DNA of 64,000 bases from Vibrio metschnikovii CIP 69.14 (GTDB lineage: Bacteria; Pseudomonadota; Gammaproteobacteria; Enterobacterales; Vibrionaceae): NCBI RefSeq assembly GCF_000176155.1, contig NZ_ACZO01000006.1, positions 620,001-684,000 of the forward strand, in the 5' to 3' direction. The position numbers and the translations under genes are program-made. This document shows positions 49,463-52,395 of this stretch, piece by piece. Every line of letters starts with the position of its first letter. The first letter of the stretch is position 1. The notes under the pieces are model-generated. The model saw only the letters and a program-made list of their open reading frames with translations, searched no databases and was not told the origin of the DNA.

Positions 49463-52395
49463 TGGTCACCTTTGTCTCTCAGTGTGAGAAAAACGCCCTC
49501 AAGAAAACCCGCCGTGTGCTGGATGCCTTCGCCAACCGGATAGGTGATAACACCTGGCAGACCCTCATTACCCAAGAAGGGTTACTCACGGTGAAAAAAA
49601 TGCTAGGCCAAACTGCCACCCGCAGCACCGCCGTCAGTTGCCATTGGATCCGCTCACGCTCGCGCAGCCAGTTGTTGTGGGTGGTGGGTAACAAGAAGAA
49701 ATTTAATGCAGAAGGTGTGGTGCCTGTTAATCAAACTGGAAAAGAGGTTTTTATGGATGTTTTAACTGATAAACCCAAGCAAGGTGTGTTGTATGCAAAC
49801 ACCCAATTGCAACCACTGAGCGAGCATTTATTTGCGGTTGGATATGTTGCCGAACGACTACACTGTCAGTTATTTCCAGACAATACACAGTTTTCAATTG
49901 TGAATTTCATTGCAGGTTGCTTGCATGATTTAGGAAAAATTGACCCCAAGTTCCAAGAGTGGGTAACCAACCCTAAAAAGAAAGAGTACATAGCAGACGA
50001 TGGCCAGCATATTGATGATGCCAAATTTAGCTTTGATAAACATCCAAGACATAATGAAATTTCACTTTTGCTCTATCAATTACTTGATAGTGCAGAATTA
50101 AAATGTCTAAATCCCAGCAATAAACGTTCTGTAAAGCACGCGATATACTGGCATCATGCAAAGCCTTTTCGTAAAGAAAAAAATGGTTTTGATAGTTATA
50201 AAGATATTTGTAAAAAGCTGGTGGTAAATCAAAAAGAAGTAAAGTTAGCTGATATTGTGGTTCAAGCCCAAGCGCTGATTAAGCAAGTTGTTGCCATAGA
50301 TAAAAAATACCGTGAGTCAACCAATAGTATTCTTGAAAGAAGTATCTTGGCTGACGAATTGCAGGAATTAGAGGAGAATCTGCCTGATGCGCCGCCTCTG
50401 CCTAGCTATAAAGAATATGAACTAGAAGAATCAGTATCAGCCAATACCTTCAATGTTAAAGTTAATGCGCTAAACAATATTGCACGCGCATGCTTGATCA
50501 CTGCTGATCGAATAATATCTGCATTAAGTGCGACAGAATTACACACTGTCATTTTTGAGCGGAACTTAAATGAACTTGTGGCTGGGCTGCTCGAAGTGGA
50601 ATCTTCTCTCAGTAGCGATATTGCTACCTGCCTACGCACATTTTATCCGGATAGTGAACGCAGTAAAAAGCAAAGTGAGATTGCTCAACAATTGGCTAAC
50701 GCTGATGATGTTTCAGTACTCGCGGGTGCTGCTGGCTGTGGTAAAACCAAAATTGCCTTGGAATGGGCAAAGTTGACAGGTGCGAAGCGCATTATTTGGG
50801 TGTGCCCTCGTGTACAGGTATGCCAAGGTTTATTTTATGAGCTCACCTCGGAGCAATATTTGCCCAATAGCACTATTGAAATTAATACGGGGGAATTTAA
50901 GTTTCATAATCAATGGGATAACCCTATTACCGATGATGAAAGCTTTTCTGGTGATATCGTTATTACCACTATAGATCAAATTCTCGGTTCAGTGATCAGC
51001 CACACGAAAGCCAACACGCTTATAGATTTTTTGAACGTACATGTAGTGTTCGATGAATTTCATGAGTACGTCAATATGCCAGCCTTTAATTTGTTATTTG
51101 CAGAGCTTATTGCAGCCAAAAAGATGCAGCAGCAACAAGCCAAAACCTTATTAGTGTCGGCAACCCCTCATTACGTGTTTGTTGAAGAACTGCTTGGTAT
51201 TCACCCTGATGATATTAAAGTCATGCCATCGTTTAATCACAGTCAGTATCAACTTGACTTTAAAGTATTCAATGATTCGGAATTAGGTGCAGATAATCCG
51301 CTATTTACGGAACAAAAGGATGGTACTTTTGTTATCAGTAATATGGCACTCACGGCACAAAATAGTTTTATCCACAATCAACACAGAGAAAATGCTGTTT
51401 TATTACACTCAAAATTTATTAAGAGTGACAAACGTAAATGGTTTGGTGAAGTGTACGAAGCATTCAAACGCGGAGGAACCCGTAAGTTTGAAGTGTTGCG
51501 CAGCGGACCAATTGTACAGGCCTCGCTAAATATCAGTTGTGATTATATGGTGGCCGAAATCACCAGTGCTGAAGATAGCTTACAGCGTTTAGGTCGTTTA
51601 GATCGCTTTGGTGAAAATAAGGTTGTAAACACTTACACATTGGCAGTGCCTGAATCAGTTGCTAATAGCAAAGGTAAAAGCCCTGCTGCGGGTTTTCTAT
51701 CTAAAATGTATGTATTAAGCTCTGTGAGGGCATGGTATCAATTTTTGCGAAGCGAACTTGATGATAAAACGTTTACCTTGCCAGAAGCTTATCAACTTTA
51801 TTTCACCTTTCATCACACCGAGCGTAATCGTGGTTTTATAGAAAGTGATTTAGTGGCCGCACTTAAAAACAGTGTGCAACAAATCAATGCCAAAGTGGTT
51901 GATCCAATCACTATGCCACCGAAGAAAAATAAAGATAAAAAACGCAGTAAAATTAGTAAAGGATCTCTGCGTGGCGATAATCGTTTTGTGCAAATGGCGC
52001 TTGTAGATCTCAGTAATTCGGAGCCAAATTTTCTTGACCAATATGCCTACTCAATACCACTAGATGATGACAGCAACATCGATAATCTTACCTATGCCAC
52101 TAGCGCTATTTGTGGTTATGGCCAAAGTGACAAAGACTTGTTATCTCATATGTTTAAAAAGCATCACAACATTATGGGTGGGTTTAATAAATCGTTCACT
52201 GACAAAATTTTATTAAACCAAGCTCGGGATCCTGAATCGCCAATTTATTTAAGTTATACCAGTAACGATTTACTGCAAGTGGGCGGCGAAAGTGCTCGTC
52301 ACTCGCATGCTATTTATTACGCCGTCTGCGATAAACAAGCTATCGGTGCAATATCCATTAAACAAATTAATCAAACTACAGAAGATGAGGAATAA
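49459..52395 (+). CDS. cas3: Cas2-Cas3 fusion nuclease-helicase (type I-F)
   Basis: The 978-residue protein has an N-terminal Cas2-like domain (residues about 1-85), an HD nuclease domain with H156-D157 in CLHDLGKID, and a DExH helicase. Walker A is AGAAGCGKT (422-430), motif II is DEFH (from 532), motif III is VSATP, and motif VI is LQRLGRLDRFG. It is the I-F effector nuclease that degrades DNA marked by Cascade and also joins Cas1 in spacer acquisition. Composition falls from 39 of 60 G+C (49621-49680) to 21 of 60 (49741-49800) within about 100 bp, at the Cas2-HD boundary (residues 80-95). This implies a module junction. Confidence 0.95.
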   Translation: MMVTFVSQCEKNALKKTRRVLDAFANRIGDNTWQTLITQEGLLTVKKMLGQTATRSTAVSCHWIRSRSRSQLLWVVGNKKKFNAEGVVPVNQTGKEVFMDVLTDKPKQGVLYANTQLQPLSEHLFAVGYVAERLHCQLFPDNTQFSIVNFIAGCLHDLGKIDPKFQEWVTNPKKKEYIADDGQHIDDAKFSFDKHPRHNEISLLLYQLLDSAELKCLNPSNKRSVKHAIYWHHAKPFRKEKNGFDSYKDICKKLVVNQKEVKLADIVVQAQALIKQVVAIDKKYRESTNSILERSILADELQELEENLPDAPPLPSYKEYELEESVSANTFNVKVNALNNIARACLITADRIISALSATELHTVIFERNLNELVAGLLEVESSLSSDIATCLRTFYPDSERSKKQSEIAQQLANADDVSVLAGAAGCGKTKIALEWAKLTGAKRIIWVCPRVQVCQGLFYELTSEQYLPNSTIEINTGEFKFHNQWDNPITDDESFSGDIVITTIDQILGSVISHTKANTLIDFLNVHVVFDEFHEYVNMPAFNLLFAELIAAKKMQQQQAKTLLVSATPHYVFVEELLGIHPDDIKVMPSFNHSQYQLDFKVFNDSELGADNPLFTEQKDGTFVISNMALTAQNSFIHNQHRENAVLLHSKFIKSDKRKWFGEVYEAFKRGGTRKFEVLRSGPIVQASLNISCDYMVAEITSAEDSLQRLGRLDRFGENKVVNTYTLAVPESVANSKGKSPAAGFLSKMYVLSSVRAWYQFLRSELDDKTFTLPEAYQLYFTFHHTERNRGFIESDLVAALKNSVQQINAKVVDPITMPPKKNKDKKRSKISKGSLRGDNRFVQMALVDLSNSEPNFLDQYAYSIPLDDDSNIDNLTYATSAICGYGQSDKDLLSHMFKKHHNIMGGFNKSFTDKILLNQARDPESPIYLSYTSNDLLQVGGESARHSHAIYYAVCDKQAIGAISIKQINQTTEDEE

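Follow-up and report, generated by a model that had tools for sequence, protein, structure and literature searches.

The cas2-3 gene of a type I-F CRISPR (clustered regularly interspaced short palindromic repeats) locus in Vibrio metschnikovii CIP 69.14 is probably a chimera, its first 84–85 codons coming from the I-F1 side and the remainder from I-F2, the likely origin being a homologous recombination event that put the I-F2 genes in place of a resident I-F1 interference cassette. The locus lies in a stretch of 64,000 nucleotides (nt) of contig NZ_ACZO01000006.1 (positions 620,001 to 684,000; assembly GCF_000176155.1), hereafter the window, in whose coordinates positions are given. Judged by its interference genes, the locus is type I-F2 (I-Fv). 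Its cas2-3 has two matches that meet at a seam at 49711–49715, the locus occupies a chromosomal site shared with V. injensis, the CRISPR repeats are identical, and trees of the two halves conflict. A sequence-only reading of the window had proposed, from a fall in guanine-plus-cytosine (G+C) content, that an I-F1-like adaptation half had been joined to an I-F2 interference half at residues 80–95 of Cas2-3. Homology and trees support both origins, and the seam, at codons 85–86, is where that reading had put it, although it is homology and not G+C content that shows it.

Two closest relatives meet at a seam within cas2-3

The nearest I-F2 relative that we found is the locus of V. fujianensis (L001). 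Nucleotide mismatches between the two number 148/1238 to the left of 49710 and 83/2685 to the right, with a changepoint at 49710 (interval 49699–49745), and divergence at fourfold-degenerate sites falls from 69/167 (0.413) on the left to 23/321 (0.072) on the right (Fisher p 5e-19). The I-F1 locus of V. injensis is 93.2% identical to the window over 48578–49715; beyond that, blastn gives no further match before the leader. Site by site, the window sides with V. injensis and not with V. fujianensis at 49683, 49689, 49695, 49699, 49709 and 49710, and from 49716 to 49760 it sides with V. fujianensis at all informative sites except 49738, which places the crossover in 49711–49715. The recombination test on cas2-3 nucleotides that the sequence-only reading had called for gave the same answer: in a triplet MaxChi test none of 1000 shuffles reached the observed value. 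Over 48578–49716, 88 sites are common to the window and V. injensis only and 30 to the window and V. fujianensis only, so that cas1 is not a single clean block. An in-frame stop interrupts the V. fujianensis cas2-3 (L001 10001–12925) at about residue 37 and the cas1 there contains a run of 9 N, and that copy may therefore be broken or mis-assembled.

To the right of the seam, the helicase part is 97.2% and the stretch 50667–55054 is 95.4% identical in nucleotides to V. fujianensis, and protein identity is 95–98% from the HD domain through Cas6f; Cas6f is 96% identical to that of V. fujianensis and 31% identical to that of V. injensis. An 11-kb background stretch is only 71–80% identical to V. 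fujianensis (four longest matches) and 87% to V. injensis. The I-F2 half thus stands far above the V. fujianensis background, which argues that it moved between species recently. The sequence-only reading needs correcting in one respect, since the leader goes with the interference half and not with cas1 (94% identity to the V. fujianensis leader and 78% to that of V. injensis). The CRISPR repeat of the window is found unchanged in V. fujianensis (14/14) and in V. injensis (21/22). Shared spacers were tried as a sign of recent array transfer and set aside, for none was shared at six or fewer mismatches between spacers of equal length across 11 arrays (the window, V. fujianensis, V. injensis and eight others). 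A search of plasmid records found no close source; 15 of 72,556 matched, the best being 76.8% identical and ending at the seam.

A chromosomal site shared with V. injensis

A single blastn match of 88.3% identity joins window 42802–48591 to V. injensis (G156:C16:142957–137169), running from the flank into cas1, and at this matching site V. injensis holds I-F1 genes and an array. The two genomes have the same site and a different INTERFERENCE; in V. injensis both the Cas3 part and Cas6f are I-F1. The cas1 gene of V. injensis is split by about 34 kb in which Mu transposase domains (PF02914, PF09039) occur among many other open reading frames, that is, by a Mu-like prophage in the adaptation gene (L243 8892–10888, L244 and L245; G156:C16 about 103118–137168).

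Identity to V. injensis is uneven along cas1: 99% in the first 119 nt beyond the prophage, 84–89% in the next 250 nt or so and 96–99% in the middle of the gene. In the first 300 columns of the scan other I-F1 loci are closer to the window than V. injensis is. Fourfold divergence between the window and V. injensis is 41/159 (0.258) in the comparable part of cas1 and Cas2 and 0.374 and 0.443 in two flanking genes; being no greater than in the flank, it fits a resident, conserved gene or one that was later homogenised.

At the protein level, Cas1 is 95–98% and Cas2 93–94% identical to Vibrio I-F1 systems (V. injensis, HDW18, L117 and L120), the V. injensis Cas1 comparison covering 294 of 329 residues. 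Cas1 identity is 70–81% in nine of ten non-Vibrio I-F2 loci whose helicase is 76–84% identical to that of the window (L002–L008, L010 and L031). The tenth, L024 of Nitrincola, has a Cas1 that is 93% identical and so looks swapped too.

Phylogenies of the two halves

Separate trees of the two halves, which the sequence-only reading had proposed as a check, are not congruent. In the HD-helicase tree (60 of 66 I-F2 loci) the Cas3 part falls in the I-F2 clade and the window groups with V. fujianensis with full support in the Shimodaira–Hasegawa-like approximate likelihood ratio test (SH-aLRT 100), then with L004 (98), whose Cas1 is only 76% identical to that of the window. The HD-helicase of the window has no blastp match among the I-F1 loci.

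The Cas1–Cas2 of the window does not group with other I-F2 Cas1–Cas2, a point that lies outside the published definition of I-F2. In a hand-chosen 24-row DNA set the window joins V. injensis (support 98/98) and the I-F2 locus L121 falls inside Vibrio I-F1 (96/97); approximately unbiased (AU) tests reject I-F2 as one clade (p 4e-63) and a group of the window, L001, L121 and L024 (p 7e-53). In a 42-row protein set, also chosen by hand, the window again joins V. injensis (99/92) and both an I-F2 clade (p 1e-78) and a group of the window, L001 and L004 (p 0.014) are rejected; the I-F1/I-F2 labels need 13 changes on this tree, no fewer than shuffled labels (12.1). A quick tree of Cas1 with Cas2 residues 1–85 covered 119 of 129 distinct loci, 10 that were untyped or too short being left out. 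On it the labels need 26 changes, at least 8 of them forced by well-supported branches, and shuffled labels need 40, which suggests that such swaps recur; the Cas1–Cas2 group of the window comprises 12 I-F1 and 4 I-F2 rows.

The G+C step

The counts on which the proposal had rested are exact (39/60 at 49621–49680, 21/60 at 49741–49800 and 14/60 at 53941–54000). The maximum-likelihood changepoint in G+C is at 49688, and block shuffles equal it in 1/300 cases within cas2-3 and in 0/300 within cas1 plus cas2-3. The further description of the genes as growing steadily AT-richer holds as far as cas5fv (G+C of 0.392 in the HD-helicase, 0.378 in cas7fv and 0.329 in cas5fv) and is reversed in cas6f (0.406). 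Counting this one, the window has 8 separate places at which G+C falls by 18/60 or more over 120 nt (74/63,820 positions), and an equally large 500-versus-500 step is present at 37951 (0.162).

Every one of the 45 I-F2 loci whose sequence suffices has a positive 500-versus-500 step across codon 85 (mean 0.082), that of the window (0.146) being the second largest, as have 25 of 30 I-F1 loci (mean 0.038); the survey covered the loci that were collected first. Among the I-F2 loci step size is correlated with the G+C content of cas1 (0.68), the mean being 0.043 in the 11 loci with cas1 below 0.40 and 0.106 in the 20 at or above 0.45. The sequence-only reading had held that a step common to all I-F2 homologues, GC-poor genomes included, would tell against it, and this is largely what we find, although the step is weak in the GC-poor 11. 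A matching local drop is present in the I-F1 gene of V. injensis (0.57, 0.58 and then 0.37 in 60-nt bins) and a sharp one likewise in L063, L119 and L120, so that the drop goes with the conserved Cas2 tail, regardless of the type of Cas3 behind it. The step is real, then, but we reject composition as evidence of a module swap, and more widely a G+C step that coincides with a conserved domain linker says little about recombination.

Other type I-F loci

Fourfold divergence to the left and right of the seam was compared in 29 pairs that share members (13 I-F2, 14 same-type I-F1 and 2 across interference types). The left half is much more diverged in 5 of the 13 I-F2 pairs, namely the window with L001, the three pairs of the trio L121/L003/L024, and L022 with L023 (all p < 1e-9); it is mildly more diverged in 4 others (p 0.0003–0.05) and not in the remaining 4. 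Among I-F1 loci, L116, L118 and L205 share 94% of Cas1 mutually and L118 and L119 share 98%, yet their Cas3 parts are only 39–64% identical. In Vibrio and its relatives, N-terminal halves that are almost identical are followed by three or more different types of interference, and similarity in Cas1 or in the N-terminal part of Cas2-3 cannot assign an I-F subtype.

In 10 of 12 scanned pairs DNA homology ends at codons 83–96, and in two I-F1 pairs at codons 77 and 65. The HD domains are too diverged for homology to continue far, so that this clustering by itself is no proof of a hot spot. We see an even balance for and against the broader proposal that the Cas2 C-terminal tail (codons ~83–96) is a recurrent crossover hinge of type I-F, at which the whole target-destroying machine is swapped together with Cas6f and the leader, the integrase and repeats being kept. 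Such swaps would be allowed by the tail being the last sequence common to I-F1 and I-F2, and the Cas2–Cas3 fusion would then be a standard plug and not a barrier to module exchange.

Some I-F2 loci are mosaics of another kind. L010 and L031 share 92% of Cas3 and 95% of Cas6f but 54% of Cas7fv and 47% of Cas5fv, with a similar pattern in L003 and L024; L121 and L003 share 94% of Cas3 and 93% of Cas6f but 54% of Cas5fv; and L002 and L005 are 85% identical in Cas3, Cas7fv and Cas5fv but 34% in Cas6f.

Proposed mechanism

The incoming piece would have been the I-F2 cassette, though the reverse direction is compatible with the data. Its left crossover would have used the last stretch common to I-F1 and I-F2, the Cas2 C-terminal tail, and its right crossover may have fallen in or beyond the leader or array. 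A crossover at codons 85–86 would keep the resident Cas1 and Cas2 core and bring in a Cas3 matched to its own effector genes. The Cas1–Cas2 integrase may thus have kept feeding the same repeats while the target-destroying enzyme, the effector genes and Cas6f were exchanged as a block; the repeat is identical in both parents, so that the retained integrase and the incoming Cas6f would act on one and the same repeat.

In the Pseudomonas aeruginosa I-F complex, according to the portion of PMC12259127 covered here, a Cas2 dimer forms the core, Cas1 and Cas3 form blades, and residues 95–104 are a flexible linker. Residue numbering of the P. aeruginosa and window Cas2-3 agrees over residues 2–98, which puts the seam in the Cas2 tail, about 10 residues before the linker and past the last predicted Cas2 strand. 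An AlphaFold2 model lends weak support, predicting that strand at 70–78 and the next helix from 120; it was used for secondary structure only, its predicted local distance difference test (pLDDT) score averaging 73.8 but lying at 41–61 over residues 1–110. Of the residues named in that portion of PMC12259127, K11, R18, R55 and T93 are present in the window, with S at N56 and G at C94. K11, R18 and R55 would lie on the resident side and have been kept, and T93 on the incoming side, where the residue is unchanged.

Direction of the exchange and alternative explanations

Several observations weigh against replacement of a resident I-F1 cassette, or against parts of it. The direction of the exchange is itself inferred. 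With L121 as third sequence the MaxChi value again lies beyond all 1000 shuffles, but the best break is at 49659–49662, 50 nt earlier. Synteny with V. injensis breaks to the right of the array, where an apparent inversion adjoins it, so that the right crossover is not located by synteny. In the 119-row tree a single open fork unites the window with V. fujianensis and V. injensis, and in the 24-row set holding the window and V. fujianensis together is not rejected (p 0.076). In the middle of cas1, identity to V. injensis (96–99%) exceeds that of the flank (88–89%), which makes some later conversion between these two lineages possible. A third interference type, G125, is a candidate for the same site, but its sensor-kinase flank is on a 5.9 kb contig with 3.1 kb past the kinase that lack a cas1 match, and this flank could not be joined to its cas genes. 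Finally, 7 of the 14 same-type I-F1 pairs differ between halves at p < 0.05, though none below 9e-4 and none much beyond twofold.

If the exchange ran in the opposite direction, I-F2 would be ancestral at the site, V. injensis would have gained an I-F1 cassette through a crossover likewise near the end of Cas2, and V. fujianensis would have received its I-F2 cassette from the window lineage. The I-F1 interference genes of V. injensis are indeed closer to those of L119 and L063 at fourfold sites (0.228 and 0.263) than its cas1 plus Cas2 (0.348 and 0.368; p 0.005 and 0.02), so that the V. injensis locus may itself be a mosaic. We nevertheless consider this course improbable, because in the sample this adaptation type is more often paired with I-F1 (12 rows to 4) and because the cassette common to the window and V. 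fujianensis (helicase 0.072) is far younger than the split from V. injensis (0.37–0.44 in flanking genes). A little less probable again is that the adaptation half is the newcomer, a V. injensis-like I-F1 locus having replaced cas1 and Cas2 of a resident I-F2 locus with its own by gene conversion. The parts of cas1 that exceed the flanking genes in identity would fit this, as would the leader staying with the interference half, but the left flank beyond cas1 is colinear with V. injensis and unbroken at the start of cas1, and, since V. injensis has I-F1 at that very site, no import is needed to explain the left side.

It has also to be asked whether any recombination took place, the G+C step being simply a product of the codon and amino-acid content of the Cas2 tail (KKKFN..G.VPVN) followed by AT-rich I-F2 helicase genes. 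This remains the best account of the step itself, covering all 45 I-F2 loci, 25 of the 30 I-F1 loci and the 60-nt drop in V. injensis. As an account of the locus it is refuted and has next to no probability, for it cannot explain the switch of relatives at 49711–49715, the synonymous divergence of 0.413 versus 0.072 or the conflict between trees.

Layout of the locus

Positions of the features are collected in Table 1. Open reading frames of at least 90 amino acids in the operon are cas1, cas2-3, cas7fv, cas5fv and cas6f, followed by the array with nothing between; there is no cas8f (large subunit), and the I-F1 effector genes cas8f, cas5f1 and cas7f1 are absent from the operon. What we take to be the HD and helicase motifs of Cas2-3 appear intact in the alignment (H156-D157, GAAGCGKT at 423–430 and DEFH at 532–535). 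Structure 9g44 is a close relative of the I-F2 Cas3 of the window (49771–52392), the match being limited to residues 105–978, and I-F1 Cas2/3 structures match at residues 2–98 only.

Table 1. Features of the type I-F locus and its left flank, in window coordinates.
Feature	Position	Strand	Evidence
Left flank: response regulator, cache-domain sensor kinase, intergenic region before cas1	42802..48472	.	Colinear with V. injensis I-F1 site; Pfam for both genes
cas1 (type I-F), probably I-F1-derived half	48473..49462	+	TIGR03637, 479.6 bits
cas2-3, probably chimeric, 978 codons, open	49459..52395	+	Pfam Cas3_I-F_Cas2 at residues 1–79, DEAD, Cas3-like_C_2, Cas3_HD
Cas2 coding segment, probable I-F1 origin, codons 1–84	49459..49710	+	
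Crossover tract, codons 85–86	49711..49715	+	Between last V. injensis-only site 49710 and first V. fujianensis-only site 49716
I-F2 HD nuclease-helicase part of cas2-3	49716..52395	+	97.2% nt identity to V. fujianensis
cas7fv	52399..53346	+	NF040577, 494.6 bits
cas5fv	53355..54365	+	PF20158, 240.1 bits
cas6f, I-F2 kind	54374..54925	+	TIGR02563; 31% identity to V. injensis Cas6f
Leader	54926..55055	+	Identity over last 125 nt: V. fujianensis 94%, V. injensis 78%
CRISPR array: 21 identical repeats, 20 spacers of 32 nt	55056..56283	+	

The comparison with V. injensis fits an inversion of about 270 kb with one end just to the right of the array (window 56284–58459; G000:C6 about 947120–947154). 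An alpha-galactosidase-like gene (56697–58469) adjoins this end, and neither of the V. injensis regions that were compared contains a match to it. Four further arrays with I-F repeats lie elsewhere in the same genome (G000:C5:805393–858386; L285–L287), with 30 repeats of which 15 carry 1–2 variant bases; a tblastn search of the surrounding 60 kb for a donor or second cas locus found no cas gene.

Comparison with known systems

The window resembles type I-F2 in having cas1, a fused cas2-3, cas7fv, cas5fv and cas6f and no cas8f, and it is unlike I-F2 elsewhere in that its Cas1 and Cas2 are near-matches of Vibrio I-F1 systems. With the I-F1 locus of V. injensis it shares flank, cas1, Cas2 and repeat, and it differs in the Cas3 part and Cas6f and in the prophage that splits the V. 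injensis cas1. An I-F variant intermediate between I-F1 and I-F2 is mentioned in the parts covered of the 2025 classification (PMC12669027) and may bear on the present locus.

That effector modules can be exchanged in situ while the adaptation module stays in place is already established, on the parts covered of Koonin and Makarova 2019 (PMC6452270) and of PMC12669027, where the Extended Data Fig. 9 legend, on Cas9, deals with effector exchange. As in such exchanges, related genomes have, through local replacement, widely differing interference genes behind a near-identical cas1 at one site: cas1–Cas2 is 93% identical in nucleotides to V. injensis before the match is lost, and the left flank is colinear while the right flank is rearranged. 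In most cases adaptation genes and the array and/or cas6 are reported to stay fixed (PMC6452270, same parts). The window departs from the exchanges described there, since a single gene contains its seam and the interference half carried cas6f and the leader with it, these following V. fujianensis, and the repeat being common to V. fujianensis and V. injensis.

A parallel exists in V. cholerae, where the island VPI-6 carries either canonical I-F or I-FV2 systems (PMC6360697, in the parts covered) and thus, like the window and V. injensis, shows two I-F interference types in one island position, here within one species. Those parts give no seam internal to cas3 and no comparison of adaptation with interference genes, and the loci were compared by description. 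Neither a chimeric Cas2-3 nor a crossover within its gene is reported in the literature searched, which was covered in part, including portions of PMC6360697, PMC6452270, PMC12669027, PMC9428484 and PMC12259127, and had most subscription journals outside its scope. The seam makes it testable whether an I-F1 Cas1–Cas2 integrase works with an I-F2 Cas3 attached, and such a test would tell whether I-F1 and I-F2 belong to a single kit with exchangeable parts. Effector exchange as such was already known from gene trees; the present locus adds a case in which the site is known, the two relatives can be named, and the crossover falls within the cas2-3 fusion itself, placed to about 5 bases.

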